Source of the DNA: a bacterium
Lineage (GTDB): Bacteria > SZUA-182 > DTGQ01
Direction of reading: 5' to 3'
Assembly: GCA_040755755.1 (NCBI GenBank)
Contig: JBFLZW010000030.1
Coordinates: 62,001 to 126,000, forward strand
DNA: 64,000 nucleotides
Positions 41,337 through 62,001 of the stretch are shown one piece after another. Position 1 is the first letter of the stretch, and the number at the start of each line of letters is the position of its first letter. The notes under the pieces were generated by a model. It saw nothing but the letters and a program-made list of their open reading frames with translations. It had not been told where the DNA came from and ran no database searches. A program made the position numbers and the translations under genes.

Positions 41337-41667
41337 ACCAGGAATATCATAAGAGGTTGACGGTCCGAAATCCTGCCGGCCAGGTTCCGCGTGAAACTGG
41401 CACGGCAGCTCTGCGGTGAAAAAGCAGCCCGGTGTATTTTGGCGAAATGAAGAGCGGCCCTTGCGAATGCCAGAGCCCTGAAGCCTCCTGCAACCTCCCC
41501 CAGTCATGCCCGCCATCTCCTGCCCGTAAGCGGCAGAGCTTCCTCATCTTGAAAAATAGTATTTTGATCTCAAAATTATGTTGTAAAATTGGCATAAATA
41601 TAATATAGTAATAGCCTGTAGAAGGCCTGTATAACGCTCTGTGTTACCTAGAAAAGAAGGGGTTCAC
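41337..41667. other. Leader-like intergenic region before the triple-HTH regulator
   Basis: A G/C-rich first half (about 41350-41540) with several short complementary segments gives way to an AT-rich stretch just before the regulator start. I do not recognise a known riboswitch class. It may be a structured leader. Confidence 0.3.
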
Positions 41668-43509
41668 ATGACAAAAAGTCTAAAAGAGAAAATTCTCATT
41701 ATCGATGATGAGACAGAGATCCTCAATTGCCTTTCGCAGATACTGGGAGCGGAAGGCTATACGGTAACCACGACTGATCGGGGAAGCAAGGGACTGGAGC
41801 TTATTACCCACAATCCTCCCGATCTGGTTCTCCTGGATGTCAAGATGCCCGACCTTGATGGGCTGGAAACCCTGAAGAGAATTAAAGAATACGATGAGGA
41901 TATTATCGTTTTTCTCATGACCGCTTATTCTGACATCAGAGATGCGGTGAGAGCGATCAAGGGGGGTGCGCATGACTATTTTTCAAAACCGTTCAACATC
42001 AAAGAGACGAAGGAAAAACTGAGGAAGGCTCTCAAGGAGAAATCCCTGCGGGAAGAAGTGCTGAAGCTGCGCAGGGAGTATTACGGCCGGTCGAAGTTTC
42101 CCAATATTATCACTTCCTCGCCTGCAATGCTCCGGGTCTTCCATGAGCTTGAAAAAGTTGCCCCTTCAGATATTTCCATTCTGATTACCGGCGAGAGCGG
42201 TACGGGGAAAGAACTGGTCGCCAGGGCCATACACGAAAACAGCCCGCGAAAATCAGAGCCGTTCATTCCCGTCGACTGCGCAGCCATTCCCGAGACCCTG
42301 TTCGAGAGTGAGGTCTTCGGACACGAAAAAGGAGCTTACACCAGTGCGGACCAGAAAAGGAATGGCCTGTTTGAGATGGCCCATCGGGGGACTCTGTTTC
42401 TGGATGAGATCGGCAATTTGCAGCCCTCCAGCCAGATCAAGCTTCTGCGAGCGATTCAGGAAAAGAAAATCAAATATATCGGCGGGAAGGAACTGATCGA
42501 TGTCGATGTCCGGATTATTGCCGCTACCAACCTCGATCTTCAGGAGGCCATGCAAAAGTGCGGCTTCCGTCAAGAGCTTTTTTACCGGATCAACCAGTTC
42601 AACATCCACCTTCCTCCTCTGCGGGAGCGGAAAGAGGATATCATCCTCCTGGCCAACTTCTTCCTGGAACGGTCTGTCAGTAAAAATGGCGCCACTGCCA
42701 AAAGCCTGGCCCCGGAGACCATAGAAATCCTTCTTCAATACGATTGGCCGGGAAATATCCGCGAACTGGAAAGCGTCATCCACGGAGCTTCCATTCTGGC
42801 CAGGGATGAAATCCGGCCCGAACACCTTAACTACCGGGTAAAAAGCAAGACCTCTTCCTGGATAAAGTTAACAGTCGATATTCCGGTTAATGCCTCTCTG
42901 AAAAAGGTTATGAAAACCACCGCTGAACAGGTGGAGAGGGCCTATATCCAGAAAACCTTCCTCAAGGCTGAATACAAGAAGTATGAAACCAGCAAACTCC
43001 TTGGCATCGGCCTTAAGACACTCTACGGAAAGCTCAACAAGCATAACCTCTGCCTCAAGTCCAGGGAACCGAATGAGAAAAAGAATGAGCAAATCACCTT
43101 CTCTGCCGGTATGACCCTCCAGGAGGCAGCCTCCCAGGTCAGGGAAAAACTGGAAAAATGGATCATCATCAAAGCCCTCCGTGAGGCAGAGGGGAAAAAA
43201 TATTTCGCTGCCCAAAAACTGAAGGTCGATTATAAGACCCTGTGGCTGAAGTCCAAAAAGTATAAGATTGATAATAAGGCTATTTATGAGGAAGAAGTCC
43301 CCCGTCACTTTCTGGGTGTGGACCTGTGCTGTGAGCTCGGCCTGACTGAAGCCTGTAAGGCTGCCTTATCAGCCATGGAAAAAGAATTGATCCAGAAAAC
43401 CATTGAAAAAACCCACGGCCATAAAACCGAAGCCGCGAAGATCCTGAACATCGATTATAAAACGTTATATAACAAGATCCTGCAGCATGACCTGAATCAA
43501 AGGATCTAA
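41668..43509 (+). CDS. Sigma-54-type response regulator with three C-terminal Fis HTH units
   Basis: The start at MTKSLKEKILIIDDE has an AAGGGGT ribosome site. The receiver (phospho-acceptor D57 in LVLLDVKMPDLDG) is followed by an AAA+ domain (Walker A GESGTGKE near 175, Walker B GTLFLDEIG). The loop reads GAYTSA, not GAFTGA, so sigma-54 contact is doubtful. The C-terminal part holds three related Fis-like HTH units: KYETSKLLGIGLKTLYGKL, KKYFAAQKLKVDYKTLWLK and HKTEAAKILNIDYKTLYNK, at roughly 430-465, 500-532 and 573-611. Normal family members have one. It lies just upstream of a receiver-kinase and the envelope cluster, which it may regulate. Confidence 0.88.
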   Translation: MTKSLKEKILIIDDETEILNCLSQILGAEGYTVTTTDRGSKGLELITHNPPDLVLLDVKMPDLDGLETLKRIKEYDEDIIVFLMTAYSDIRDAVRAIKGGAHDYFSKPFNIKETKEKLRKALKEKSLREEVLKLRREYYGRSKFPNIITSSPAMLRVFHELEKVAPSDISILITGESGTGKELVARAIHENSPRKSEPFIPVDCAAIPETLFESEVFGHEKGAYTSADQKRNGLFEMAHRGTLFLDEIGNLQPSSQIKLLRAIQEKKIKYIGGKELIDVDVRIIAATNLDLQEAMQKCGFRQELFYRINQFNIHLPPLRERKEDIILLANFFLERSVSKNGATAKSLAPETIEILLQYDWPGNIRELESVIHGASILARDEIRPEHLNYRVKSKTSSWIKLTVDIPVNASLKKVMKTTAEQVERAYIQKTFLKAEYKKYETSKLLGIGLKTLYGKLNKHNLCLKSREPNEKKNEQITFSAGMTLQEAASQVREKLEKWIIIKALREAEGKKYFAAQKLKVDYKTLWLKSKKYKIDNKAIYEEEVPRHFLGVDLCCELGLTEACKAALSAMEKELIQKTIEKTHGHKTEAAKILNIDYKTLYNKILQHDLNQRI

Positions 43510-43531
43510 AGCCATCCCATAGTCTTCCCAA

Positions 43532-43590
43532 ACCGCAGGGAGAGAGAAGCCCGGAGGTCATCACCCTGAGCTTTTCTCTGTACCTGCGGT
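43532..43590 (+). terminator. Long hairpin after the triple-HTH regulator
   Basis: ACCGCAGG with GAGAGAGAAG pairs with CTTTTCTCT and CCTGCGGT around a loop of about 20 bases. It begins 23 bp after the stop codon. No T-run follows directly, so it may be a stabilising or Rho-dependent end. Confidence 0.45.
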
Positions 43591-43747
43591 AGTTCCATTC
43601 TCTCTATCTGCAAATTTTTTGCGTAAAAAAATACCCTTATTAGTTCCTGGATAATTGAAAAAAAGACCGACTAGGTGTGTATGAATATATTATAATTTTA
43701 TGCAAAATTGATTAACTATATAACTTAATTCGGTGACCTGAATAGTT

Positions 43748-45010
43748 ATGCTCATTGCCCAGGATCTCATTCGCCCGATAGCGAAAGTACAGAAAAGAGT
43801 TCTCTTGATCGATGACGACCGCTTCATTCTCCATTCTCTCGGTGAAATGCTGTCCATGAAGGGATACCAGGTGATCAAGGCTCAGAGCGCCGAGGAAGGA
43901 TTACAGCACTTTGAAAGGGAAACTCCCCCGATTGTCATGGCTGATATTATGATGCCTGATATGGATGGATTGGAACTACTGCAAAAAATACGGAAGATTA
44001 ACCCCGATGCTGAAGTCATTATGATTACTGCCTATGACCGGGCTGATCTGGCCATTGAGGCCATGCACTTGCAGGCTGCGGATTTTCTGTCCAAACCTAT
44101 CCGTCCCCAGCAGCTTTTCTCCGCAATCAAACGTGCAGAAGACCGGGTCAAAAATAAAAGGAAAATAGCCCAATATATCAGCCGACTTGAACAGGCACTG
44201 GAGGACCGGACCCAAAGGCTTCTTCAGTCCGAAAAGCAGGCTGCGATCGGCAGCAGGGTCAGTGGCATTATCCATAATGTTTCTACACCCCTGGCCGTAG
44301 TTTCAAGCAGGGCAGAGTATCTTGCCGGCAAGCTTGAGGATCTGAAAAATCTGCCGCAAGTCCGGCAAAGTCCGGCTTTGCAGGAAGAAATGGAAAAGCG
44401 GATCGCCGAAGTACATGTCATAGTAAAAAACGCTCAAAAAATTGCCATGATTATTGATACCATCATGACCAAGTCCTACCGGGAACAGTATGAGCAGCTT
44501 GCTCCACTGGATATAAATCAGCTCGTTACCGATGAGCTGGACTTTTTCCAGTCCGATTTATACTTCAAGCACAATATCAAGCTCTCGAAGCATCTTGATC
44601 CCAATCTTCCCAAAGTTAAAATGATTTACAGTCACCTCTCCCAGGTTTTGGATAACCTGTTGAAAAACGCCATCGAAGCGATGTACGATTCTCTGACCAA
44701 AAATTTGACCATCATCACCGAACAGGATGAGCAGAATATCCTGATCAGGGTTCAGGATACCGGATCCGGAATCGCAGCCAAGAACCTGAAAAAAATCTTC
44801 ACTCCGCATTTCACCACCAAAACCTACCGGCCCGCAGGAGGAAAAGAGCCTCTTTCGAGCGGAAGCGGACTTGGGCTCTCTGCCTCCCTCAGCTTTATTC
44901 AATTGTACGGGGGAACAATTCTGGTGAAGAGCAAGCCCAACGAAGGGAGTGAATTCACGGTCGTCATTCCCAAAAATCCCACTCCACCCCCTGGCAGGGG
45001 GGAAGAGTAG
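43748..45010 (+). CDS. Receiver-histidine kinase hybrid (receiver first)
   Basis: The 420-residue protein begins with a receiver domain (DDD pocket, phospho-acceptor D66 in VMADIMMPDMDG, K in LSKPIRP). A coiled linker (ISRLEQALEDRTQRLLQSEKQ) leads to a HisKA-like helix with H176 in IIHNVSTPLAVV, a divergent H-box. The HATPase domain has the N-box QVLDNLLKNAIEAM and DTGSGI and GSGLGLSAS boxes. No membrane segment is seen. The last residues (PTPPPGRGEE) and the stop codon lie in a G/C-rich palindromic repeat. Its substrate may be the regulator upstream. Confidence 0.85.
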   Translation: MLIAQDLIRPIAKVQKRVLLIDDDRFILHSLGEMLSMKGYQVIKAQSAEEGLQHFERETPPIVMADIMMPDMDGLELLQKIRKINPDAEVIMITAYDRADLAIEAMHLQAADFLSKPIRPQQLFSAIKRAEDRVKNKRKIAQYISRLEQALEDRTQRLLQSEKQAAIGSRVSGIIHNVSTPLAVVSSRAEYLAGKLEDLKNLPQVRQSPALQEEMEKRIAEVHVIVKNAQKIAMIIDTIMTKSYREQYEQLAPLDINQLVTDELDFFQSDLYFKHNIKLSKHLDPNLPKVKMIYSHLSQVLDNLLKNAIEAMYDSLTKNLTIITEQDEQNILIRVQDTGSGIAAKNLKKIFTPHFTTKTYRPAGGKEPLSSGSGLGLSASLSFIQLYGGTILVKSKPNEGSEFTVVIPKNPTPPPGRGEE

Positions 45011-45446: not shown

Positions 45447-48362
45447 ATGCAGCATATGGACAGGGAAGAAGAAATGTCATCCGAAGGGCCGCACGAGATC
45501 CGGTCCGGCAATATTGAAGAAATCCTGCGTGAGCGGGACCGCCTTGAGCAGATGCTCCGGGAGAGATTCGAGAAAGAGGTAGTCATCCTCTTTACCGATA
45601 TCTGCGGCTACACCGGGTATATCGACGCTCACGGCGATGTAAGCGGTCTGGCCCTGATTCAGCGGCATAACCAGATTGTCCTGCCTCTCATTGAACAGTA
45701 TCGGGGGATGGTTGTCAAAACCATTGGCGATGCGGTCATGATTTCCTTCTCAACTCCCCTGGATGCGGTCAAAGCTGCGGTGGACATCCAGAAAAAGCTG
45801 CACGAGTACAATACCACGGTTGAGGATGATGGCCGGATCCGGGTCAAGATCGGGATCAATATCGGCCAGGCACTGGTGGATGAGGCGGATATTCATGGCG
45901 ATGTGGTCAATGTCGCCTCGCGTATTCAGGCCCAGGCCGGGCCGGACCAGATACTCATCTCCAGCCGGGTCTACGAACAGGTGCGGGGAATCGAGGATAT
46001 CCTGTGCCGGTCGCACGGAACCGTGAAGGTCAAGGGCAAGACCGAGCCCCTGGAGCTGTACCGCGTAGTCTGGCGGGATGAAGACATCATTCTGGGCGAT
46101 AAGCCAAAGGTCAGGTCTTTGAGCGGAGCATCACCTTCCCGGCAGCCAGCCAGGAAACCTGTCAGGATCATCCAGCTTGAGGTTACCCGTCAGGATGGCC
46201 GTCTCAAGATCAGCATCGACGAGCGCCTTGCAGGCGAAGAAAGCACGGTACGCAACTACGAGGAAGTCCCGGTATCCCTGGACTGGATTAAAACCCGGTG
46301 CCACGAGATGGTCGAAACCCTGAACGAGGTCAACCGCCAGGGCCGGTTCAGCCGCGAGGTCCTGCTCAAGCTGCGGGCAACGGGCCGGGTCTTTTATAAT
46401 GAGCTTCTGACCCCTCTGGTCAAAACCAAACTCCGGGAGACCAGGGCCGAATACCTGAGTCTGAATATCGACGATCAACTGGTTCAGGTTCCCTGGGAGC
46501 TGCTCTACGACGGTCAGGAATTCCTCTGCCAGCGGTTCAATATGGGCCGTCTGGTGAAAACCCGCCAATCGGTGCAGGGGATCAAAGGCCGTTCCCCGCT
46601 GAACCCCTGCGGGGACAGGGTTCTGTCCAGGCCCCTGCGGATGCTGATTATCGCCGATCCTACCGGCGATCTCAAGGATGCCTACCGGGAGGGGATACAG
46701 ATCCAGGAGCATATGGCTCAATACGGGAATTTCATTAATGTGGCCCTGCGCTCCCAGGGTATCACCCCTCCCTTTATCAGGGAAAAGATGAAATACTTTG
46801 ACCTGATCCACTTTGCAGGCCATGCGGACTACGACCAGGAGAACCCCGAGCGGGGCGGCTGGCGTCTGACCAGCGGCAATCTGACCGCTCAGGATGTCAT
46901 GCAGATGGCAGGATCATCCGCCATGCCCAGCCTCATTTTCTCGAATTCCTGCCAATCGGCCCGCACCGAAGGATGGGTCCTGAAGGAGCACTTTCAGGAT
47001 GAAATTTTCGGCCTGGCCCACGCCTTTCTGCTGAGCGGAGTAAAGCACTATGTGGGCACCTTCTGGGAGATACTTGATGAGCCGAGCAGCCGCTTTGCCC
47101 TGGAGTTCTACAAGTGCCTTTTATCCGGCCTGACTACGGGTGAGGCCATGCGGGAAGCCAGACTGTCGCTGATCAGAAAATATGGCGAAGAAACGGCTGT
47201 CTGGGCAAGCTATCTGCTGTATGGCGATCCCACAACCAATTACCTTGATCTGATAAAGTCGGCTGAGGGAGATGATGAGTCAGAATCGGCAGGCAGCACC
47301 TCTGCCTTCCGGGAAGGAATCGAAACCGGGGAGCCGGGCAGACAGAGCCCCGGGAAAGCTGCCCTGGCTGCGACCGGCCTGAGGCAGCAGTGGCTGCTGG
47401 CGGCCGGAGGCGGCCTTCTTCTCCTTGCAATTCTCTTCCTGTTCACGACCAGACTTTGGCAGCCTTCACAGCCATCATTTCAGACCTTGCCCTTTCCTGC
47501 GGCAGCTCCGGGGGTCTTGCTCTCCCAGACGCCGGGCGGAGCGACAGCGGATTCCGACTTCCAGAAAAGCGTCCAGATCATCAGCCTCCTCTCCTCCTAT
47601 CAGGATCGGTTGAACAGCCGGTTTAAGGAGCGGGGGTTCTTCATCAGGGAAAAGACACCGGATACCTGGACCTCGGTTCCCTTGTCCGTGGGTATGATCC
47701 TGCCCGACTGGGAGAAGGTCGATCCTGCTGCAGCCAGGGCTGCCAAGCCCCATTTTGACCTGCTTTTTAAAAGAATGGTTGAAACCTTCACTCAGACGCA
47801 TGCCCTTGGCCTGTCCATTCTGGAAAGAGAGCGATTGACAGCCATTCTCCAGGAGCTTCAGATCGGAATCGCGAACCTTTCTCCCGATGCCCTCGAAAGT
47901 GCCCGCAGCATTCTCGCGGCCCAGGTAATTCTTTTTCCCGAACCGGTCTTTTACCAGTTCGATCAGGGCGATGATCCGCAGATCAGCCTTCGTCTGGTGG
48001 AAACCAAAAGCACCAAGATCATGGCCGCCTTCTCCGGGTCTTTCACCCCGGAAGCGGAGTCCATCAACAGGACAGCCTCGGACCTGGTCACCAGGATCGT
48101 AAAAACCCTCCAGGAAGAATACCCCTTGCAGGGCCGGATTGTGTCGCTCAAGGGTCATATGGCGGAAATCAACCTCGGATCCTGTATCGGGGTCTCGAAG
48201 AACCAGTCTTTTACCGTGCTGAACCAGGGGAATGATGATCCCCCGAAGGGGAATATCCGCATCCTGTCCGTTGCCGAACATACAGCCCTGGCCGAAGTTC
48301 TGGAACGGCATAAGGAATTTGTGCCCGGCGACCGGATAGTCAGCAAGGGCAGTGGTCAGTGA
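45447..48362 (+). CDS. Class III nucleotide cyclase-CHAT-transmembrane-CsgG/FlgT-like fusion
   Basis: The 971-residue protein begins with a class III cyclase domain (metal Asp D51 in LFTDICGYT and D95 in KTIGDAVMISF, then HGDVVNVASRIQA). A CHAT caspase-like domain follows, with EYLSLNIDDQLVQVPWELLY, catalytic His459 in HFAGHA and Cys502 in SNSCQS, and YLLYGDPT. A Gly/Pro/Ser linker leads to one transmembrane helix (about 648-672, WLLAAGGGLLLLAILFLF). The C-terminal 290 residues include a CsgG-like ILERERLTAILQELQIG stretch and an end module (GRIVSLKGHMAEINLGS) shared with the next two genes. Cyclase and CHAT should be cytoplasmic and the tail periplasmic. It probably couples an envelope signal to cAMP (or another nucleotide) and proteolysis. 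Confidence 0.85.
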   Translation: MQHMDREEEMSSEGPHEIRSGNIEEILRERDRLEQMLRERFEKEVVILFTDICGYTGYIDAHGDVSGLALIQRHNQIVLPLIEQYRGMVVKTIGDAVMISFSTPLDAVKAAVDIQKKLHEYNTTVEDDGRIRVKIGINIGQALVDEADIHGDVVNVASRIQAQAGPDQILISSRVYEQVRGIEDILCRSHGTVKVKGKTEPLELYRVVWRDEDIILGDKPKVRSLSGASPSRQPARKPVRIIQLEVTRQDGRLKISIDERLAGEESTVRNYEEVPVSLDWIKTRCHEMVETLNEVNRQGRFSREVLLKLRATGRVFYNELLTPLVKTKLRETRAEYLSLNIDDQLVQVPWELLYDGQEFLCQRFNMGRLVKTRQSVQGIKGRSPLNPCGDRVLSRPLRMLIIADPTGDLKDAYREGIQIQEHMAQYGNFINVALRSQGITPPFIREKMKYFDLIHFAGHADYDQENPERGGWRLTSGNLTAQDVMQMAGSSAMPSLIFSNSCQSARTEGWVLKEHFQDEIFGLAHAFLLSGVKHYVGTFWEILDEPSSRFALEFYKCLLSGLTTGEAMREARLSLIRKYGEETAVWASYLLYGDPTTNYLDLIKSAEGDDESESAGSTSAFREGIETGEPGRQSPGKAALAATGLRQQWLLAAGGGLLLLAILFLFTTRLWQPSQPSFQTLPFPAAAPGVLLSQTPGGATADSDFQKSVQIISLLSSYQDRLNSRFKERGFFIREKTPDTWTSVPLSVGMILPDWEKVDPAAARAAKPHFDLLFKRMVETFTQTHALGLSILERERLTAILQELQIGIANLSPDALESARSILAAQVILFPEPVFYQFDQGDDPQISLRLVETKSTKIMAAFSGSFTPEAESINRTASDLVTRIVKTLQEEYPLQGRIVSLKGHMAEINLGSCIGVSKNQSFTVLNQGNDDPPKGNIRILSVAEHTALAEVLERHKEFVPGDRIVSKGSGQ

Positions 48363-48428: not shown

Positions 48429-50978
48429 ATGAAACAGGGTCTTGTTCAACTCACCCAATTCCATGCTCATGATTCCACAACAACAGGTATCTATCGCGCC
48501 ATATACGGTGCCCCCCTGTCATTGCTGTCTGCCTGCCTTGCGCTTTCTCTGAGCCTCCTTCTCACCTCGTGCTCAAAGGTTCAACCGAAGGTCTGCCTCA
48601 GAGATGGCCGTCAATATTGTCTGACCACGGATAAAATCCAGGTAATCACCTGGGATGCCTGCTACCGGCGCGCGATCAACTGCATGGAAGGCCAATGCTG
48701 GGAATATGCCATTGAAGAGCTGTATCAGGCCATTGCCCTTCGTTTTGGGGACCAGAGGCAGGTCAGGGCTTACGGCATGCACTTTCGTGAGGAATACTTT
48801 CCTCACCGCGAGCTTGGGATCTGCTATTTTCACCTGGGAAGGATCGAGGATGCAGTGCAGGAACTTGAGCTGTCCCTGAGCCAGACCCCGTCGGCCAGGG
48901 CTAAATATTATCTGAACCAGGGCCGGCGCGCCTATCTTTTGGACAACCATCTGGACACTGCACCGCCAGCCATTCACCTGGAGCTGGGCCTGGATCCGGA
49001 CCTGGAACCAGGGGGAATTTCCCAGGAAGGGGGATCTCTGACCAATCAAGTCCTTTTAACCAATCAGACCCCGTTTCCTATCCAGGGCACTGCGCAGGAT
49101 GATCACTATGTAGCCTCCATCTCGGTTAATCAAAAACCCGTGTTCATCGAACTGGCTGAGGGTTCAATACCATTTTCCGTGCCTGTCGATCTTACCGAAG
49201 GTGAAAACATGGTTCAGGTTGTGGTCAGAGACCTGGCTGACCGACAGGTCCAGCAGAACATCCGGATATCCCTGGACAGTCAAGGCCCGCTGGTTATCGG
49301 CTATTCCATCCGAGCGGCCTGGCCGGATCAAAACATACCGGACAGGACCAGGGGAGCATCCGGGGGAGCGTCACAGGAAACATCCGGCGGAACATCCGGG
49401 GGATCACCCCGGAGAACACCCGATGGAGCATCCGGTCAGATCATCCTGACCGCCGTGGTTTACGATCGCTCAGGAATAGCCTCCTTCAAACTGGACCAGA
49501 AAGAAGCAGCCAGGATCGGTCTTGACCAGCTCTGCCTGATTGAGCAGGCCGTGCCGCTTACCCCTGCTGTTGAGTTCCTGTCCTTCCAGGCCCAGGACCG
49601 GGCGGGGAATATTACTCAGGGCCGGATATCCCTTATCGCAGATGAGGCAGAGGGGCAGGGGCCTGAACGTCCTTCGGTCCGGCATCCTGCCGCCGTGCGC
49701 CTTGCCTGGAGCGGCGGCAGCGCCAGCAGCCTTGAGGGGGAGGGGGCCGGACTGATCCGGAGCCTTCCTCGTGCCCCGGCGGCAGGTGAAGAAAACGGCA
49801 TCTCCTTTGATATTGTCCAGCCCCCCGAAGAAAATTTTACTACTCATTATCCGGAGATATTTCTGGAAGGCAGAATCAGAACCCGAAGGGGTATCCGGAA
49901 AATCGAGCTGAACGGACAAAAGCTCTTTGAGCCTTCAGACCTTCAGGAGATAATGGAAAAAAATATGGAGAAGCTCAAGCGCAGGCTCCTTGAGCAGAAG
50001 AAAGACCCGGCGCACTACGTGCGGCTTTTGCAGGAGGCGGTTCAAAGCTCTAATCTCTATTATCTCAATCGGAGGATCCCCCTGATAAATGAAGTCACTG
50101 ACCTTGACCTGGTGGTTGAGGATGCCGGAGGCATGCGGGGAGCACGCCATTACCGCATCGAGAAGATCCCCAGGGAGGAAGTCATAAAGAGCGAGCAGCG
50201 GATGATCCTGGCACTTCTCCCCTTCGATACCGCCACAGCAGACGATGCTGCCGCGGCAGACGATACCGCAGTACCAGACATGGCCCCGCCATCAGAGATG
50301 GCCGCAGCAGCGAATGAAACAGTATCAGGCAGGGGAAATAATAACCATCTGCAAAGCTTCATCAATGCCAAATCCCTGGAAGCCTTTGTCAATCAGGGCA
50401 GATTTAACCTGGTTGAGCGCGGAAAGCTTCCCTGGGTGCTGATCGAAAAAACCATCCAATTGCATGGCCAGACAGCAGGACAATCAGGAGGACAACCGGC
50501 AGGCCAATCGGAGGGCAGAATTTACCAGAGCGATGTAGCCCAGAAGATCGGCGCGATGGCAGCAGCCGAAGGGGTCATCTGCGGCTATATCCAGCGGCGG
50601 GGGGATGGCACCGAAATCCTGGCCAGATTTGTTGAGGTCAAAACCGGCCTCATTCGCCTGTACCATGATGTCTTTACCCCCACCGAGAGCAGGGAGAGCC
50701 TGGAGACGATCACCGCGGGCCTGGCCATGAAATTCCGGGACTCCTTCCCCGTATGCTCAGGATCGGTCGTCGCCCGGCAGGGAAAGAGCATCCAGGTGGA
50801 TTTTGGCTCGGAAAAGGGAATCTTTCCAGGGATGATGTATAATATCTTTGAGAATGAGCAGGAGCTCATTGCCAGGGCCAATATCAGAGAGGTAGGGAAA
50901 GGGGCCTCCGAGGCCGAGATTACCGGAGGGGAGAGCGCGAACAGAATCAAACCGGGTTACCGGGTGAGGACAAGGTAG
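48429..50978 (+). CDS. Envelope lipoprotein with TPR, Ig-like and CsgG/FlgT-like modules
   Basis: A signal region (LSLLSACLALSLSLLLTSC) ends in a lipobox, Cys near 50; the start could be an ATG further down. TPR-like helices follow (WEYAIEELYQAIALR, FHLGRIEDAVQELELSL), then an Ig-like segment (LDSQGPLVIGYS), a Gly/Ser/Thr linker, a second Ig-like segment (YPEIFLEGRIRTRRGIRKIEL), an Ala/Asp/Thr-rich linker and a CsgG-like core (FNLVERGKLPWVLIEKTIQ). It ends in the FlgT-like module (GSVVARQGKSIQVDFGSEKG). The last 270 residues match the 52491 gene and, more weakly, the cyclase tail. It starts 66 bp after the cyclase gene. It is likely anchored to a membrane facing the periplasm. Confidence 0.8.
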   Translation: MKQGLVQLTQFHAHDSTTTGIYRAIYGAPLSLLSACLALSLSLLLTSCSKVQPKVCLRDGRQYCLTTDKIQVITWDACYRRAINCMEGQCWEYAIEELYQAIALRFGDQRQVRAYGMHFREEYFPHRELGICYFHLGRIEDAVQELELSLSQTPSARAKYYLNQGRRAYLLDNHLDTAPPAIHLELGLDPDLEPGGISQEGGSLTNQVLLTNQTPFPIQGTAQDDHYVASISVNQKPVFIELAEGSIPFSVPVDLTEGENMVQVVVRDLADRQVQQNIRISLDSQGPLVIGYSIRAAWPDQNIPDRTRGASGGASQETSGGTSGGSPRRTPDGASGQIILTAVVYDRSGIASFKLDQKEAARIGLDQLCLIEQAVPLTPAVEFLSFQAQDRAGNITQGRISLIADEAEGQGPERPSVRHPAAVRLAWSGGSASSLEGEGAGLIRSLPRAPAAGEENGISFDIVQPPEENFTTHYPEIFLEGRIRTRRGIRKIELNGQKLFEPSDLQEIMEKNMEKLKRRLLEQKKDPAHYVRLLQEAVQSSNLYYLNRRIPLINEVTDLDLVVEDAGGMRGARHYRIEKIPREEVIKSEQRMILALLPFDTATADDAAAADDTAVPDMAPPSEMAAAANETVSGRGNNNHLQSFINAKSLEAFVNQGRFNLVERGKLPWVLIEKTIQLHGQTAGQSGGQPAGQSEGRIYQSDVAQKIGAMAAAEGVICGYIQRRGDGTEILARFVEVKTGLIRLYHDVFTPTESRESLETITAGLAMKFRDSFPVCSGSVVARQGKSIQVDFGSEKGIFPGMMYNIFENEQELIARANIREVGKGASEAEITGGESANRIKPGYRVRTR

Positions 50979-51669: not shown

Positions 51670-52224
51670 ATGTCTCAATATAGACGTGCCTATATGCCGG
51701 GGGGAACTCGCTTCTTCCCGGTTGTGACCTTCAACCGGCGTCAGTTTTTGACAACCGAGCTGGCACGGCGATGCTTGCGTTCGGCATGGGAGCACGTGCA
51801 AAGATATCACCCGTTTCGGGCGGAAGCGGTTTGCCTTTTGCCTGATCACCTGCATTGTCTTTGGACTCTTCCCCCAGGTGATATGGATTTCTCAAGGCGG
51901 TGGAGGATAATGAAAGGTGTATTTTCCAAGCAGTATCTTGCTGCTGGTGGCTTCGAGGCAAAGCGGAACAATTCACGGGAACGTAAGGGAGAAGTTGCAT
52001 TATGGCAAAGGCGCTTCTGGGAGCATTTGATTCTGGATGAAGAGGATTTTCAGAGGCACTTTGACTATATCCACTTCAATCCTGTAAAACACGGCCATGT
52101 TGATGAACCAGCAAAATGGCCTTGGTCAACATTCTGCAAGCATGTGCGATTAGGGCATTATGATCCAGGATGGGGTGCCCAGGAGCCGAATTCAATCAAG
52201 GGATTAGCATGCTGGGGGGAGTAA
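51670..52224 (+). CDS. REP-associated tyrosine transposase (RAYT, Y1 family)
   Basis: The 184-residue protein has the family opening YRRAYMPGGTRFFPVVTFNRR, the HUH metal motif in LLPDHLHCLW, a YLAAGG region and the C-terminal IHFNPVKHG block with WPWSTF. RAYTs are single-copy IS200/IS605-related enzymes that mobilise nearby REP palindromes. An inverted pair of such palindromes lies directly downstream (52254-52420). The gene interrupts the run between the two CsgG/FlgT-like genes, so it is probably a later arrival. The catalytic Tyr is likely the one in the FDYIHFNPVK segment. Confidence 0.92.
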   Translation: MSQYRRAYMPGGTRFFPVVTFNRRQFLTTELARRCLRSAWEHVQRYHPFRAEAVCLLPDHLHCLWTLPPGDMDFSRRWRIMKGVFSKQYLAAGGFEAKRNNSRERKGEVALWQRRFWEHLILDEEDFQRHFDYIHFNPVKHGHVDEPAKWPWSTFCKHVRLGHYDPGWGAQEPNSIKGLACWGE

Positions 52225-52490: not shown

Positions 52491-54113
52491 ATGAAGAATG
52501 ATGAGAATACTGAGAAAAAGGAAAAAATACATCCCTTGCTGCCTGCTCCCGCAGGCAGCAAGGTCAGTGATTCAACAAAGACAGATGAGGCGCTAAAAGC
52601 TGATAAGGTCAAGAATCGAAAGAGCAAACTGCCCCTCCCTGCCAAGGGTGCCAGCATCCTCCTCTGCTTTATCTCCCCTGCCCTGCTCTTTCTTAGCTGC
52701 CTTGCGGCTGGAATCTTGAGTTTCAGCTATGGGCAAAACCAGGCGTTGCACCACCCTGCCCTATCGATTGCCCTATCCCTTTCGGCTTCCGAGGCAACTC
52801 CTCCAAGGCACCTTTCGCCCCCCCGAAAGGCCAATGTCACTAACTTAAGGATTATCCACGACCAACGCCCCTCACCTGCCACAGAGACTCTCTGCCAGCC
52901 CTCTCCCCAAAGGGGCGAGGGGGAAAAGCGCTGCCCCAAGTTAATACCATTGCCCCAAAAGGCCCCATCTCGGCCTGTCCCCCCTGCCCCCACATCTCCA
53001 CCGCAAAGCGAGGATATTGCCATCACGATCAGTTACCCTCAGAAATCCAAGCTGACCACTCCATACCGGCAGATTTTCCTGGAAGGAAAAATTCAGGCCA
53101 GGCACGGCCTGCGGCGGATAGAATTCAATGGCCGGGAGCTTTTCAACAAGGCCGTGCTTGATAAGCTCATTCAGCAATCCTGGACGACAAAGCTTGACCA
53201 GGGGGGCGATAAAGCTTCTGCCAGGCCAACTCAAACCTCATCGAAGCTGCAAAAGACCTTAGCGGGCAGCCTGGAAAATTATAACCTGTACTGCCTGAAC
53301 CAGGTCTGCTCCCTGAAGGAAGGCGATAACAAGCTCTATCTCGTGGTGGAGGACAATGCAGGTCATAAGGCCACCAGACGGTTCGATATCTGCGCTGCTC
53401 CTCTTGTGCCAACTCCTCACCGGATGATCCTGGCGCTTCTTCCACCATCCCCAAAATCAGGCGCGGGCAAGGATGACGATCTCGATGATTACATCCATCA
53501 CCGGCTCGGTGAGGCTATCACCCGCCAGGCACGGTTTCATCTGGTCGAGCGGAGCAAGCTCCCCTGGCTGCTGATTGAAAAGGCCATCCAGACATCCTCT
53601 GGCGGCCATCAATCCGTCAGCGACCACCAAAGAGAAATTTTCCGGCAGGAAATTACCCGACAGATCGGCCAGCTTACGCCAGCCGAAGGGATACTGTTCA
53701 TCGAAGTACACAAAAGCGGAGACGGCCTCGAGATTCAAGGCCGTCTGGTGAATCTGGAGAGCACCACCCTGGCCTTTCACCGGGTGTTCACCCCGATTCA
53801 GGAGCCGCAGGGCGATCAGGATTTCGGGGAGCTGGATACTATCATCTCCGGTTTAGCCATGAAATTCCGCGATTCCTTCCCCCTTTTGACCGGAACCATA
53901 CTGGCCAGGGAAGGATCGATCATCGAGGTGGACCTTGGTTCAGAAAAAGGGGTGTTCTGCGGAATATGCTATAATATATTTACAGCAGACAGACAGGAGC
54001 TGCTCTGCCGGGCAATTGTCCAGGAGGTGGCCAGGGATGTATCCAGGGCCAGGGTTATTGAAGCAGATATGAGCCGGAAGATCAGGGCAGGCTGCCGGGT
54101 GAGCACCCGATGA
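52491..54113 (+). CDS. Exported protein with Ig-like and CsgG/FlgT-like modules
   Basis: The N-terminal 50 residues are charged; a hydrophobic stretch (ILLCFISPALLFLSCLAAGILSF, about 57-80) is either a signal/lipobox (FLSC) or an anchor. A Pro-rich linker follows that includes an in-frame palindromic repeat (PSPQRGEGEKR). An Ig-like segment (YRQIFLEGKIQARHGLRRIEFNG), a CsgG-like core (FHLVERSKLPWLLIEKAIQ) and the end module (GTILAREGSIIEVDLGSEKG) match the gene at 48429-50978 in order. The TPR half of that protein is missing here, so this is a shortened paralogue. It lies 35 bp before the giant gene. Confidence 0.75.
   Translation: MKNDENTEKKEKIHPLLPAPAGSKVSDSTKTDEALKADKVKNRKSKLPLPAKGASILLCFISPALLFLSCLAAGILSFSYGQNQALHHPALSIALSLSASEATPPRHLSPPRKANVTNLRIIHDQRPSPATETLCQPSPQRGEGEKRCPKLIPLPQKAPSRPVPPAPTSPPQSEDIAITISYPQKSKLTTPYRQIFLEGKIQARHGLRRIEFNGRELFNKAVLDKLIQQSWTTKLDQGGDKASARPTQTSSKLQKTLAGSLENYNLYCLNQVCSLKEGDNKLYLVVEDNAGHKATRRFDICAAPLVPTPHRMILALLPPSPKSGAGKDDDLDDYIHHRLGEAITRQARFHLVERSKLPWLLIEKAIQTSSGGHQSVSDHQREIFRQEITRQIGQLTPAEGILFIEVHKSGDGLEIQGRLVNLESTTLAFHRVFTPIQEPQGDQDFGELDTIISGLAMKFRDSFPLLTGTILAREGSIIEVDLGSEKGVFCGICYNIFTADRQELLCRAIVQEVARDVSRARVIEADMSRKIRAGCRVSTR
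52863..52930. repeat. G/C-rich palindromic repeat translated in frame
   Basis: CCCTCTCCCCAAAGGGGCGA with flanks resembles, in reverse complement, the intergenic element at 51112-51162. Here it encodes the segment SPQRGEGEKR in the Pro-rich linker without breaking the frame. Confidence 0.6.
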
Positions 54114-54148: not shown

Positions 54149-57100
54149 ATGTGCAGGAACAGCAGTAAGAAAACATACACAACTCTTTGGGAGACAGCCT
54201 TTTTCCTTATCATAGCTCTCCTTCTCCTCATCGCCCTCCCCTCCCCTCCCGGCCACTGTCATCAGGAGAAGGTGAATTTTGGACTGACAGGCAGGTTCGG
54301 TTATAATGGAGCGATCATATGCGGGGAAATTTACCGTCACCGGAGCCGCGGCCAGACTTATGTTTACTGCGGGACCCAGGAAGGGCTGGTGATCATCGAC
54401 ATAACCGATCCTGCATCCCCCCGCATGGTGTCCTTCTTCGAGTTTGGAAAAGTCCATGCGATCAGCTTCTACCATCCGTCTGGCGAAGCCTCCGAATTTG
54501 CCCTGCTCCTGAAGGAAACAGGGGATACAGGGGAAATGGTCACACTCTCCATCGACGACCCCGCCCACCCTGCCTGTGCCGGCCGCTACAGTTTCCCCGA
54601 ATATCCCCGCCGGATTTCTGTCTTTGACCATTATGCCTGCGTGGCGAATGAATCGCGCGGTCTGGTCATTCTCGACCTTCGCGACCCGGCCCGTCCGGTC
54701 TATGCAGGCGGATATCATACTCCGGGGCAGGCCAGGGATGTTGCCATATTTGGTCATTATGCCTGTGTGGCTGATGGCCCTCGCGGCCTGACCGTGATCG
54801 ACCTGACCAATCCGGCTGATCCCCGCTATGCAGGCGAAAATCCGCTCGATATCAAAGACCTTGGCCCATGGATAGAGCACAAAAAAAATGCCTCGACAGT
54901 GGCCATGTATGACCACTACGCCTGCCTTGGCTTTCAATCGAAGGGAGGAGTAGCGATCGTTGACCTGAGCGATCCGGCCAACCCCTCGCTGGTCAGTTGG
55001 TTCACGACCGAAGGCGAGGCCAGAAAAATCGCCGTCAGCGGCCACTATGCTTATGTGGCTGACGATTCAAAAGGGCTGGTCATCATCGACCTCCATGATC
55101 CGGTAAAACCCGCCAGGGTGGATTCTGCCATGACAGGCCAGGAGGGAATCCCGGAGAGTGGCTCCGAGGGAGGTGCCCGGGACATAGCCGTATCCGGCAG
55201 CTTCGCCTCCCTGGTCAGTCGGTGGGGGAGCAGCCTGGCCATTCTGACTCTCCCGGATCCGTCCGCCCCTTCCGTGGCGGGCAGATACACGACGGAAGGA
55301 TATGCCAGGGCAGTGGCTGTGTCTGGGCATCATGCCCTGGTGGCTGACGAGAAAAACGGCCTGATGATCGTCGAGGTCACTGATCCGGCCAGGCCGGTTT
55401 TGGCCGGGCACTGCTGCACCGCTGGATCGGCCAGTGACCTTGCAGTCTTTGGCAATTATGCCTGTGTGGCTGATGGACCGCGGGGTCTTGCCATCATCGA
55501 CCTGAGTGATCCCGTTCGGCCCCGACAGGCAGGCGGCTATCATGATCAGAGGATGGTAGCCTGGGATGTTGCAGTATCTTCCCGCTATGCCTATGTGGCT
55601 GCCGACAGGCAGGGACTGGTGATTCTCGACCTGTCCGATCCTGACCACCCCACCCTTGCCGGAAGCTGTGCTACGGGAGGGACTGCCTATGGTCTTGCCG
55701 TCAGCGGCGACTATGCTTATGTGGCTGTCTGGAACGGTCTGGTGATCGTCAATATCCATGATCCTGTTCATCCGGTCCTGAGCGGCAGGTACAATCACGC
55801 TGATCTGACTGCTGCCCTGGATGTGGCTGTTTCCGGAAATCACGCTTTTGTGGCTGCCGGAGCCAGCGGCCTTTTCATTATCGATGTCAGCGACCCGGAA
55901 AGTCCGAAACTGGCTGCCCGGTATAATCCCCCAACTCTGGAGAACCATAAATCCGGGGTCCAGAGGGTGACCCTGTCCGGCGGCCATGCTTATCTGGCTG
56001 CCGGGACAGACGGACTGGTTGTGCTCGATGTCAGCGATCCGGCAAGACCCATCCTGTGCGGCCGGGAAGACACGCTGGGTCTGGCCTCGGGTATCGCCAT
56101 CCATGAGGATTATGAGGATTATGCCTTTGTGGCTGATGCGGATGGGGGGCTGGCCATATACCGGATCATCGACTCCCCTGCTCCTTCGGGCAACCTGATC
56201 GTTCTCCCCAGCGGTCCGGCTTCGGCAGCCAACCCGCTCTGGCTTCCCGGCCAGACCCTGGCCAATCTTGCCTGTTCCACTTTTCTGGACCAGGGTTTTC
56301 CCCGCTACTCACTGTACTATCTGAGCCCTGATCCGTATCCTGACCTTGACCAGAACGGCTTTCCCGATCCTCTGCTGGTGCGGGATTCCGACCCTTCAGC
56401 GGCGGACCTCGATCATGCACTCACTGACTGGGCTGTAAATCGCCTGGACAGCGGCCCTCTCTACCTCTACTTTCCGGGGCAGGGAACCGGCGAGACGTAC
56501 CGGATTCTTGGCGATGAAACCATCAGGAGTGGTAATTCTGGTAACCTCCCGGACCAGGAACAGGATGATACCGGCAGCCTGAAAGACTGGCTTGACAGTT
56601 TTCAGAAAGAGACGGGCCGGGACGTTATCTGCCTTCTGGAATTTGCCTCCTCAGGTTCTTTTGCCGCCAGGCTCATGGATTCAAATACCGCCCCCTGCAC
56701 CCGGACCATCATAAGCTGCACTGACTCCGGACCATCATCCCTCGATCCGGACGGCAGGTTTTCCTTTACCGGCCAGTTTCTCAGGCTGCTTCGCACATCT
56801 TGGTCATCACCGCGGCCTGGGCTTTTCTCAGGCTCCGGGCCGGAGGCTCAAGGCTTGAGAATATCGCTTCTCCAAGCCCTTTTTTCCGAAGCCAGGGAGT
56901 CTTTTTGGGCGTCAGGCCTGCCCTGGAACACGCAGCCGCCCCAGATGATAACCGCCCGCGGTGCCAATACCCTGGTGAGCATCAGCCTGTCGGTGGCAGA
57001 CTCCAGCAGCCGCTCGACCGCAGCCACCGGGAGCGACTCCGACATCGTCGGCCCCGCTCCGGTCACGATCACGGACCCAGGCCAGCGCCTTGTGCTCAGG

Positions 57101-60100
57101 GCCACCGGCCACTACCTTGACGGCAGCAGCCGGGACCTGAGCGGATGCGTTTATTATCAGGCTTCAGACCCATCTATCCTTTCCGTAACTCAGGAGGGGG
57201 AGATTTATCCTGACCCCAATACCGGCTATAATGGCCTTGCCTTTGTCATGGCCACCATCATCGATCCTGACTTTGCCCAAAGCGGAGAGGGGGATTCTAT
57301 CGGTCACCCCCACCCAGTCTCCCCCCTCAAGGGGGAGGAGTCAAGAGGAATCCTCCGCAAGGGGGAGAAGCGTAAAGATACCCCGCCCCTGGGCGGGATC
57401 ACCGGGCGTATCCCGGTCAGGGTGGCCATGCCTGCCGGAAAGGAAAAGAATACCTTGCCCAGGGCCATTATCGTGGCCGGAAGGGCCAATGATCCGGCAG
57501 GCTATGATTACCTGGGGGAAATCATTTCCCATACGGCCAGTTATGCCTATGACACTTTCATCGAGCGGGGCTACAGCCCGCAGAATGTCTGCTACCTGAA
57601 CCATGACCAGACTCAGCCGGGGGTGGTGCACCTTTCGCCTGATCAGACTTTCGCTCAAGTTCTTGAGGCCATATTCACCAGAGCGGATAATCCTTATCTT
57701 GATCTCGAAGGCCTGACTGACCTGACTATCCTGCTCATCGATCACGGCCAGCGAAACACGTTTTTCCTGGGGCCAGACAGTGACCAGACCATATCCCCGG
57801 TTATCCTGGATCAGTGGCTGGACAGCCTCCAGAAGAGATGCCCGTCAGCCAGGATAACGGTCATTGTCGAGGCCTGTTTTTCGGGAGGGTTTCTCGATCC
57901 GTTGATCCGGGGGGCTGAAAAGAGAACGGTCATTGCCTCGACTGACGATGTCGATACCTACCTGGCAGCCGATGGCATGGTTTCCCTGACCTCGTTCCTC
58001 TTCACCCATCTGCGAAGCGGGGCCAGCTTCCAGGATGCCTTCGACCAGGCCCGGACGGAGCTGGCATCGGTCAGTTGGGGAGGCTTGCAGCATCCTGTCC
58101 TGAAAAGTACCGAAGGCAGCCAGACCGCAGATCAACTCTATCTTGGCAGCCCGTTTTTCCTCAGCCAGGGCCAGCCGCAGATACTTCAGGTATCGGGACT
58201 TTCCGACCCCAATCATCCGCTGGTTCCCCGAAAGCCTGTCGAGCTCTGGGCCAGGGTGGCAGATCATGAGGGAGCCCCTGTGACAAGCGTCTTTGCCCTC
58301 ATCGGCAATTCCCAGGCCGCTGTCCGGTTTTCAGGCTCGTCGCAAACTCCCCTGATGGCAGCGGATATGACCAGGGTGGACCTCGCCTACAATCCCGACC
58401 GCGGCCGGTATGAGGGCGTGTATGAAGGATTTCCCTCCAGCGGCCCCTATACCGTTCTGTTCATGGCCAGAGACTCAACCGGAATGTTTTCTCATCCACG
58501 GACCGTCTATCCGAAGGTAGAGGGCGGCGATCAGGCCTCCAGCCCGGCAGAATATGCCCTCCTGGTCTATGACGACGACTGCCCGGAGTGCGCCCGTCAG
58601 GCGGAGCTCGCCCAATGGGTACTGGAAAAGAGGCGGGTTCCCAAAGAGAATATTATCAAGCTGTGCGGCAGGGAAAATCTTTCCTCTCAGATGGCTTTTC
58701 TTCTGACCGGCCCGGCAGAATCTGCCTCCCCTGCCTCTTCCGCTCCCCTCGATCATCTTCTCCTCTTCCTCATTTCCGGGGGAGACCTGGCTGACCTCGA
58801 CGGCCCGGCCCTGAGCCGGAAACTGGATGAAATCCAACAGGCCAGAGGCTGCACCATCATCAGCCTGATCGATGCGGACGATGCGGACAGGTTTTTACCC
58901 ATCCTGAAAGGGCCGGGAAGAATCACCATCAGCAGCGGCGGCACTGGCGATTCCGCCAGCGCAGACCTATCCTTCTCCCGCTTCTTCTTCTCCGGCATTT
59001 ACCGCGGCCTGGATGTGTTTCGGGCATACCAGGCAGCATGTCTGGCCGTTAGTTACTTCTCAGGCACAAGACCGCTGCCGCTCCTTGACGACAACGGAAA
59101 CGGCCAGGGCCCGGAATATGGGCCGGACTATGACGGCCGTCTGGCCAGCGGCATCTATCTTGGCGCACCTTTTGAGCCGCTACCGCCAGCCCCGGAAATC
59201 GATCTTTCCCCGTGTGTGTACCTCGATGGCCGGACGGGGAGAATCGCTCCTATCCAGGTCAGGGCGCAGGATGCCGGAAGCAGGGTTTTTGCATTGATCA
59301 CCGCGCCTGACGGATCGAGCAGCCCGGTTGATCTGATGTATGACCCCAATACCGGCATGTTCGGGGCAGAATATGCCGGATTCACCGATAAGGGAGTCTA
59401 CCGGGTAGTGGCATACGCCGAAGGACAGAGCGGACTCACCGACTTCGGTGAGACCCGCTATATAGTCCTCTGGCCGGATGAATTCGAGGCTGATGACAGC
59501 AGGGAGCGGGCTACAGCCCTGTTGGTCAATCAGCCATGCCGGGAGCACAGCTTCCATGATCCTTCCGATGAGGACTGGAGCTATTTTTATGCCTATGCCG
59601 GACTCAGCTACGAGGTCAAGGTCAGCACAAACTGGTCTGGCTGTCCGGTGCGGGTCGAGGTCCTGTCACCGGATGGGTCCCCTGTTGGCGAATCTTCCCC
59701 TTCCGTAGGTTTTACTGCGCTTGAGAGCGGCTTTCACCTGGTCAGGATCAGCTCTACCTGCGCGGACCTGCCCGCAGACTATCCCTCCTACGGGCTTTCG
59801 GTGATTTCTCTTGCGGCCGGAACAGGCGGGGCCTGGGGCTGGGTCAGGGATGCCGATACCGGAGCGGGTATTGTCGGGGCAACCATCTGTTCTGCTGCCG
59901 GACAATGTACGACCAGCCTTGAGGAATGGCGGTCACAAGATCCATCAGCGGCCATCAGACATGTGGACGCCGGCTTCTACTTCATGGATGCCCTGCCGAG
60001 GGCGAGTGCAGGATTGACTCTGACCGCCAGGGCTATCGGCTATCTGCCGCACAGCGAGGTGATATTCGACTATGACGAGGATATCCTCAGCCTGACCTTT

Positions 60101-60793
60101 TATCTTCATCGCGACCCTGAAACTCCGTACCAGCAGCCTCCAACAGATCCGGTGACTGTCCAGAGAACGGTCGGGATCATGAGCCGCGAAGGAGCGAAAA
60201 TCAGGGTGAATGTGCCCCTGTCCGAGGGGCTGAACCTCTTCTCTCATCCGAATGCCGCTCCCAGCCCCCCATATAGTGTCAAGGATTTCATGGGGACCTA
60301 CGGGCAGGCTGATCAGGCCGAAGGTCCCTGCTTTTCAGGCATCGGGCATTACAATGCAGCTCTCGGCAGGCAGGAGACGTGCTTTTTCGTTCCTCCCGCT
60401 CAGGGAGCTTCGGGCACCTGGTCCCCTAATTGCTCCAACCCCTTTCCCATGGTTTCGGGTGAAGGCTATGCATTGTATATGCGGCGGGGAAGAACCCTGA
60501 ATTTTCCGCTTCCCATGCCGAATCCGCCGATCGACCTGAAGCAGGGGCAAAACTGGGTGGGTATTTCCGACCCGCCTTCTGGCTACTCATCGTATCTGAT
60601 GCTTCAGGATATCGGAAGTGCCAGGGAAGTATCCAGCATCTTTGGCTTCGATCCTGAGACCGGCAGGTGGAAAATTACCTACTGGGACCATGACCGGCCA
60701 GCCGGAGACAACTTCCCGATCAGGCCAGGGGTAGGTTGTATAGTCCATATGACCGGCGAGAGGCTGAAGTGGCTGCCGGGAAGGAGGAAGTGA
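54149..60793 (+). CDS. Giant exported LVIVD-propeller protein with three caspase-fold modules
   Basis: The 2214-residue protein has a signal peptide (about 1-38), then 14 LVIVD repeats (GLVIIDLSDPARP type, about 50-680), enough for two seven-bladed propellers. Three caspase/C13-like modules follow. The first (about 690-930) has YLYFPGQGT and LLEFASSGSF, so both His and Cys are lost. The second (about 1100-1340) is intact, with His1199 in LLIDHGQ and Cys1243 in EACFSGGF. The third (about 1465-1670) has lost both. A pre-peptidase-like segment (DEFEADDSRERATAL), a carboxypeptidase-regulatory-like strand (GWVRDADTGAGIVGAT) and a C-terminal domain of about 200 residues end the protein. A palindromic repeat is translated near 1053-1075. 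It presumably acts outside the inner membrane as a protease or peptide-sensing scaffold; substrates are unknown. Confidence 0.82.
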   Translation: MCRNSSKKTYTTLWETAFFLIIALLLLIALPSPPGHCHQEKVNFGLTGRFGYNGAIICGEIYRHRSRGQTYVYCGTQEGLVIIDITDPASPRMVSFFEFGKVHAISFYHPSGEASEFALLLKETGDTGEMVTLSIDDPAHPACAGRYSFPEYPRRISVFDHYACVANESRGLVILDLRDPARPVYAGGYHTPGQARDVAIFGHYACVADGPRGLTVIDLTNPADPRYAGENPLDIKDLGPWIEHKKNASTVAMYDHYACLGFQSKGGVAIVDLSDPANPSLVSWFTTEGEARKIAVSGHYAYVADDSKGLVIIDLHDPVKPARVDSAMTGQEGIPESGSEGGARDIAVSGSFASLVSRWGSSLAILTLPDPSAPSVAGRYTTEGYARAVAVSGHHALVADEKNGLMIVEVTDPARPVLAGHCCTAGSASDLAVFGNYACVADGPRGLAIIDLSDPVRPRQAGGYHDQRMVAWDVAVSSRYAYVAADRQGLVILDLSDPDHPTLAGSCATGGTAYGLAVSGDYAYVAVWNGLVIVNIHDPVHPVLSGRYNHADLTAALDVAVSGNHAFVAAGASGLFIIDVSDPESPKLAARYNPPTLENHKSGVQRVTLSGGHAYLAAGTDGLVVLDVSDPARPILCGREDTLGLASGIAIHEDYEDYAFVADADGGLAIYRIIDSPAPSGNLIVLPSGPASAANPLWLPGQTLANLACSTFLDQGFPRYSLYYLSPDPYPDLDQNGFPDPLLVRDSDPSAADLDHALTDWAVNRLDSGPLYLYFPGQGTGETYRILGDETIRSGNSGNLPDQEQDDTGSLKDWLDSFQKETGRDVICLLEFASSGSFAARLMDSNTAPCTRTIISCTDSGPSSLDPDGRFSFTGQFLRLLRTSWSSPRPGLFSGSGPEAQGLRISLLQALFSEARESFWASGLPWNTQPPQMITARGANTLVSISLSVADSSSRSTAATGSDSDIVGPAPVTITDPGQRLVLRATGHYLDGSSRDLSGCVYYQASDPSILSVTQEGEIYPDPNTGYNGLAFVMATIIDPDFAQSGEGDSIGHPHPVSPLKGEESRGILRKGEKRKDTPPLGGITGRIPVRVAMPAGKEKNTLPRAIIVAGRANDPAGYDYLGEIISHTASYAYDTFIERGYSPQNVCYLNHDQTQPGVVHLSPDQTFAQVLEAIFTRADNPYLDLEGLTDLTILLIDHGQRNTFFLGPDSDQTISPVILDQWLDSLQKRCPSARITVIVEACFSGGFLDPLIRGAEKRTVIASTDDVDTYLAADGMVSLTSFLFTHLRSGASFQDAFDQARTELASVSWGGLQHPVLKSTEGSQTADQLYLGSPFFLSQGQPQILQVSGLSDPNHPLVPRKPVELWARVADHEGAPVTSVFALIGNSQAAVRFSGSSQTPLMAADMTRVDLAYNPDRGRYEGVYEGFPSSGPYTVLFMARDSTGMFSHPRTVYPKVEGGDQASSPAEYALLVYDDDCPECARQAELAQWVLEKRRVPKENIIKLCGRENLSSQMAFLLTGPAESASPASSAPLDHLLLFLISGGDLADLDGPALSRKLDEIQQARGCTIISLIDADDADRFLPILKGPGRITISSGGTGDSASADLSFSRFFFSGIYRGLDVFRAYQAACLAVSYFSGTRPLPLLDDNGNGQGPEYGPDYDGRLASGIYLGAPFEPLPPAPEIDLSPCVYLDGRTGRIAPIQVRAQDAGSRVFALITAPDGSSSPVDLMYDPNTGMFGAEYAGFTDKGVYRVVAYAEGQSGLTDFGETRYIVLWPDEFEADDSRERATALLVNQPCREHSFHDPSDEDWSYFYAYAGLSYEVKVSTNWSGCPVRVEVLSPDGSPVGESSPSVGFTALESGFHLVRISSTCADLPADYPSYGLSVISLAAGTGGAWGWVRDADTGAGIVGATICSAAGQCTTSLEEWRSQDPSAAIRHVDAGFYFMDALPRASAGLTLTARAIGYLPHSEVIFDYDEDILSLTFYLHRDPETPYQQPPTDPVTVQRTVGIMSREGAKIRVNVPLSEGLNLFSHPNAAPSPPYSVKDFMGTYGQADQAEGPCFSGIGHYNAALGRQETCFFVPPAQGASGTWSPNCSNPFPMVSGEGYALYMRRGRTLNFPLPMPNPPIDLKQGQNWVGISDPPSGYSSYLMLQDIGSAREVSSIFGFDPETGRWKITYWDHDRPAGDNFPIRPGVGCIVHMTGERLKWLPGRRK
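57304..57341. repeat. 38-bp palindromic repeat inside the giant gene
   Basis: TCACCCCCACCCAG with a CCCCCCTCAAGGGGG core is the reverse complement of the intergenic copy at 25288-25325, with one difference. It is read in frame as GHPHPVSPLKGEES. A further G/C-rich palindrome follows at about 57380-57396. Confidence 0.8.
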
Positions 60794-61953: not shown

Positions 61954-62001
61954 GCCCTGACTTTCTATTTGACCGATATCTCAATTATTGGTATTCTTAC
62001 T

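Follow-up and report, generated by a model that had tools for sequence, protein, structure and literature searches.

The protein of 971 amino acids encoded at 45447-48362 joins, in one chain, a class III cyclase, a CHAT peptidase, a single predicted transmembrane (TM) segment and a CsgG/FlgT-like tail, and it heads a conserved operon in the window, by which we mean the whole 64,000-nucleotide stretch of DNA analysed. Links between caspase-fold proteins and cyclases have precedents; CHAT, cyclase and CsgG/FlgT tail in one chain is a new variant within the records searched. We propose that the protein is an envelope-signal transducer, a CHAT-TM-tail receptor in the form that has cAMP as its output, a proposal that we think could equally well prove right or wrong.

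Domains, catalytic residues and selection

The protein and its parts are as follows.

45447-48362 (+): cyclase-CHAT-TM-CsgG/FlgT-like protein, 971 aa, first gene of the operon
45510-45569 (+): helical segment ahead of the cyclase, residues 22-41, NIEEILRERDRLEQMLRERF, recognised from sequence and kept in three orthologues
45573-46082 (+): class III cyclase domain, residues 43-212, from Pfam and the residue set
46164-47261 (+): CHAT peptidase region, residues 240-605, with the His459/Cys502 dyad, from Pfam and alignment
47394-47450 (+): single predicted transmembrane segment, residues 650-668, from hydrophobicity
47547-48359 (+): CsgG/FlgT-like tail, residues 701-971, putatively periplasmic, from profile and fold

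The reading frame is uninterrupted through all 971 codons, and both enzyme domains exceeded the curated Pfam cut-offs, Guanylate_cyc over residues 43-200 (E = 3.4e-21) and CHAT over residues 311-594 (E = 8e-36). The cyclase retains its metal residues D51 (LFTDICGYT) and D95 (KTIGDAVM), the adenine residues K91 and D152, and the transition-state residues N155 and R159, all six of them invariant across the three orthologues. Class III adenylate cyclases convert ATP to cAMP, acting as dimers, and the residue code of the class, in which a Lys/Asp pair specifies adenine, is established. Since K91/D152 and N155/R159 are present alongside the metal Asp pair, making up the full residue set of a class III adenylate cyclase, the domain is predicted from this code to be of the adenylate type. 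The helical segment that precedes it appears to resemble a cyclase-transducer element. The CHAT domain combines its profile match with the His-Cys dyad of a CHAT peptidase, H459 (FAGHADY) and C502 (SNSCQSA), which is invariant in 15 of 15 CHAT-tail proteins, and thus the catalytic sets of both enzymes look complete. The lone hydrophobic segment at 650-668 has a mean Kyte-Doolittle value of 2.28. A full-length AF2 model built from three orthologues had a pLDDT of 34 and yielded no domain contacts.

The tail had no match in a Pfam scan of the full-length protein. Scanned alone, it matched CsgG with E = 6e-4 and 19.6 bits, slightly below the cut-off of 20.8, and six of nine aligned related tails also matched CsgG; one paralogous tail reached E = 1.9e-6 with FlgT_C, above the cut-off, and the lipoprotein from the same operon exceeded the cut-off for CsgG. 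An AF2 model of the tail from nine sequences (mean pLDDT 78) found FlgT (3w1e) as its best PDB match in Foldseek (E = 4.4e-10), with further matches to the FlgT-containing LPHT ring, PelC, TolB and CsgG. Superposition scores were low (TM 0.28 to about 0.3), and therefore these matches support the fold family, not the detailed arrangement or close structural identity. Profile searches of the PDB gave nothing significant for the aligned tails (best E = 0.15) and just a weak CHAT match, 8tl0 (E = 0.0085), for the whole CHAT-tail set. FlgT, PelC, TolB and CsgG are periplasmic or outer-membrane parts. The CsgG secretion channel itself is a pore of lipoproteins anchored in the outer membrane, whereas the tail here is preceded by a single transmembrane segment and not by a lipobox.

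Two further genomes encode the same architecture (73% and 62% identity), which makes three genomes of two genera within a phylum that was sampled by nine genomes. A contig scan able to pick up only close relatives returned two contigs, from the same two further genomes. Against the closest orthologue, dN/dS (from NG86 dN and dS) was about 0.08 for the cyclase, 0.065 for CHAT and 0.22 for the tail; the cyclase and CHAT domains are both under strong purifying selection. An architecture found in three genomes and held by purifying selection is therefore no chance fusion. The linker evolves fast (dN/dS about 0.40), as might be expected if the cyclase and CHAT were both active yet functionally independent and the operon a historical accident. 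We consider this very improbable, however, because three genomes from two genera keep the order, the two enzymes are both constrained, and the operon content is common to the sigma-type paralogues described below.

These results bear out much of the first-pass annotation, which had placed D51, D95, H459 and C502 exactly where we find them, had read the order cyclase-CHAT-transmembrane-CsgG/FlgT on which the Pfam domains, the single TM segment and the profile and fold of the tail now agree, and had argued that neither enzyme is a relic, in line with two domains of which neither is decaying. The tail also folds as it supposed, with FlgT as the top structural match. It missed the paralogues with sigma and anti-sigma-like genes, as well as the operon, and these most likely supply the protein's meaning; its class III cyclase is now refined to the predicted adenylate type.

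The operon and its sigma-type paralogues

Downstream of the cyclase-CHAT gene, the operon comprises the following.

48429-50978 (+): lipoprotein, 849 aa, with lipobox LTSC, TPR, an Ig-like Glucodextran_B-like stretch and a homologous tail at residues 592-849
51670-52224 (+): Y1/IS200-like transposase gene within the operon, missing from the orthologous operons
52491-54113 (+): exported protein, 540 aa, with a third homologous tail at residues 312-540
54149-60793 (+): exported LVIVD beta-propeller protein (the giant), 2214 aa, with a C13-like caspase-fold domain
57722-57961 (+): C13-like stretch of the giant, residues 1192-1271 (LIDHG..., EACFSGG)
60799-61953 (+): exported protein, about 385 aa counted from the ATG; G002 has an exported protein of comparable size in this position
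62945-64000 (+), continuing past the window to 64330: FadL/PorV-like outer-membrane protein, 461 aa, with a similar protein in the corresponding position of G002

The order is thus cyclase-CHAT-TM-tail protein, tailed lipoprotein, tailed secreted protein, LVIVD giant, exported protein and FadL-like porin. It is kept up to the giant in G000, G001 and G002, the giant of G001 ending at a contig edge, and the exported protein of about 400 aa and the FadL/PorV-like protein follow the giant in the window genome and in G002. The His and Cys of the giant's C13-like stretch are kept in the G002 orthologue; two more C13-similar stretches, near residues 773-838 and 1539-1581, have no dyad. Two insertions break the operon in the window genome, the transposase gene and a HigB/HigA-like pair, and both are missing in G002. 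The pair (61969-62593) is small and toxin-antitoxin-like, and is named by the appearance of its sequence only. NtrC-like and hybrid regulators encoded upstream (41641-45010) were set aside as operon partners because the G002 operon instead adjoins NADH dehydrogenase (nuo)-like genes. The window genome also encodes a CRP/FNR-type protein with a cNMP domain, not linked to the operon, which is a candidate cAMP receptor.

Cyclase-free CHAT-TM-tail proteins are found in G000, G001, G002, G003 and G004, with a more distant one in G005. Their best conserved gene order is an ECF-like sigma factor, an HxxxCxxC-motif protein (about 236 aa), the CHAT-TM-tail protein and a related lipoprotein, followed by a FadL-like protein and then a secreted protein. 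In L042 and L050, Pfam backs the assignment as sigma factor, and in L042 it calls the FadL family; elsewhere a protein of similar size sits at the equivalent place. The HxxxCxxC protein has neither a Pfam match nor a TM segment, and its motif and gene order make it a likely anti-sigma-like protein; no homologue of it was found near the cyclase operon. In these sister operons, the place of the cyclase is taken by a sigma factor and its likely inhibitor, which suggests that a single envelope sensor serves two outputs that can replace each other. In a CHAT tree the three cyclase-type CHAT domains formed one clade (support 99/100), while the deeper backbone forks are open, so the tree does not give a direction from the sigma form to the cyclase form.

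In two of the sigma-type operons (L041, and L042:632-3319), the secreted protein encoded last shares the C-terminal 190 or so residues of the giant at about 28% identity. This region is possibly a sorting or anchoring domain that works with the FadL/PorV-like protein.

Export and flagellar machines contain rings, and FlgT, CsgG and PelC are among the proteins that form them. The operon could accordingly encode an assembly or secretion checkpoint, in which the three tails and the FadL-like protein make a FlgT/CsgG/PelC-like ring that exports the giant, and CHAT and cyclase just report its completion. The fold matches of the tail to these ring-forming proteins, the presence of tails on three of the successive operon products and the C-terminal region common to the giant and the sigma-operon terminal proteins all fit such a device, but FadL-like proteins are common, and we regard it as unlikely.

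Comparison with known CHAT and cyclase systems

The sigma-type paralogues recall two described arrangements. In Craspase, the CHAT protease Csx29 cleaves a sigma inhibitor (PMC10028731), and Craspase/CASP (Csx29 TPR-CHAT, Csx30 and CASP-sigma) thus likewise places a CHAT protease upstream of an inhibitor-held sigma factor. The window CHAT protein differs in that it has no TPR and has a membrane/periplasmic sensor, and in that the cyclase variant comes without a sigma factor; Craspase pairs Cas7-11 with the TPR-CHAT protein Csx29, and no Cas gene was found among the neighbours scanned. For ECF54, proteolytic control via neighbouring proteases, CHAT included, has been proposed (PMC8999054). A CHAT gene lies close to an ECF-type sigma gene in such clusters, as it does in the paralogous operons, although ECF54 is described as having no anti-sigma factor whereas the paralogues have an anti-sigma-like protein. 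The window operon has no ECF sigma beside its CHAT domain; in place of sigma and anti-sigma, its protein has the fused cyclase, together with the TM segment and CsgG/FlgT-like tail. The Leptospira plasmid NZ_CP092665 matches the paralogues in its gene order, with sigma first, then a soluble hypothetical protein, then CHAT. Its CHAT ORF (L055:4950-6161) is absent from the gene table, directly follows the sigma and hypothetical protein genes, and at 403 aa is too short to include a TM segment and tail.

Sensor-coupled relatives are known as well. Cyanobacterial metacaspase-TM-CHASE2 proteins are caspase-fold receptors with extracytoplasmic sensors (PMC3501461), and together with CHASE2-cyclases they share with the window protein the coupling of a caspase-fold or cyclase domain to such a sensor; in the window protein, however, the sensor is CsgG/FlgT-like and both enzymes lie in one chain. 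The likeness to the FlgT/FlgO/CsgG/PelC/TolB N-domain family is one of tail fold, with Pfam CsgG and FlgT_C found in relatives, but here, in place of a ring protein that is soluble or lipidated, the domain is the C-terminus of a predicted inner-membrane enzyme.

Proposed conflict systems exchange caspase-fold modules with cNMP-cyclase modules or fuse the two (PMC7159879), one example being a single-chain cyclase-caspase protein with TRADD-N in Gemmata (PMC8195603). PADLOC matched PycC, the cyclase of Pycsar, weakly (E = 3e-8) and gave a weak match to BovA as well. The protein might on these grounds belong to a defence or conflict device, Pycsar-like or ternary-conflict-like, that senses an invader and kills its own cell, with CHAT as executioner protease and the cyclase making an alarm nucleotide. 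Several observations make this quite unlikely. The weak PycC matches are explicable by the shared class III fold, and the K/D signature of the cyclase is of the adenylate type. The operon genes scanned by Pfam include no Pycsar effector and no STAND/ternary ATPase, gasdermin or EAD domain; the neighbours are envelope proteins, and the operon is the same in three related genomes. Unlike the EACC/VMAP and TRADD-N systems, the window protein has CHAT and a FlgT/CsgG periplasmic tail and lies in an envelope operon, in which no STAND, VMAP, TRADD-N or EAD parts were seen. Pycsar itself couples PycC, a cyclase for cCMP or cUMP, to an effector encoded next to it; membership was rejected, with weak cyclase matches only, adenylate-type residues and no effector identified among the neighbours scanned.

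Plasmid and phage records contained no counterpart: coverage of the cyclase-CHAT query stayed below 80% in all 641 plasmid records and all six phage records with matches, so no plasmid or phage record held both halves, which also argues against a defence role. In the literature, we found no description of a single-chain CHAT and cyclase protein, or of either enzyme on a CsgG/FlgT tail. The first-pass suggestion that the combination is undescribed thus holds for plasmid and phage records, the literature and close-relative genomes, where two other species matched. Its companion remark that CHAT beside a cyclase is unusual is weakened by the caspase-fold/cyclase links cited above and by an overlap in L054. 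At L054:3532-7892, which belongs to G001, the genes for a TPR-CHAT protein and a CHASE2-class III cyclase overlap, a second association of CHAT and cyclase in the phylum, in separate chains.

A model for envelope signalling

We return to the proposed envelope-signal transducer. The protein would be a single-pass inner-membrane transducer, with cyclase and CHAT predicted to be cytoplasmic and the tail periplasmic. The tail may assemble with the homologous tails of its putative partners, the co-encoded lipoprotein and the second exported protein, and this complex would report the state of an outer-membrane or surface assembly formed by the LVIVD giant and the FadL-like porin. From the cleavage by CHAT in Craspase, the proposal for ECF54 and the shared core, we infer that sensing by tail and lipoprotein gates CHAT; the periplasmic signal would pass across the membrane to CHAT, and the class III cyclase fused to it would turn this gating into cAMP, its predicted product, for which the CRP/FNR-type regulator is a candidate receptor.

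In the sister operons, CHAT would cleave the anti-sigma-like protein, its putative substrate, and so free the ECF-like sigma factor. Where the cyclase is fused, CHAT most likely regulates it, either through a conformational change or by cleaving the linker. The cyclase-free paralogues with a sigma factor and an anti-sigma-like protein therefore point to CHAT being coupled either to sigma release or to cAMP synthesis. The shared core would be the CHAT-TM-tail protein and its lipoprotein, and the variable part the cytoplasmic output, either sigma with an anti-sigma-like protein or a fused cyclase. More tentatively, and with somewhat less confidence than in the transducer itself, we suggest a modular receptor family, composed of a CHAT-TM-CsgG/FlgT protein, a matching lipoprotein and a porin, whose output swaps between sigma release and cAMP and in which a protease-gated cyclase reads outer-membrane assembly. 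If this is true, the use of the same membrane CHAT receptor to drive both sigma release and cAMP would be a natural experiment, CHAT signalling outside CRISPR would be open to direct testing, and, in a phylum about which little is known, caspase-like proteases would be tied both to envelope sensing and to signalling by cyclic nucleotides.
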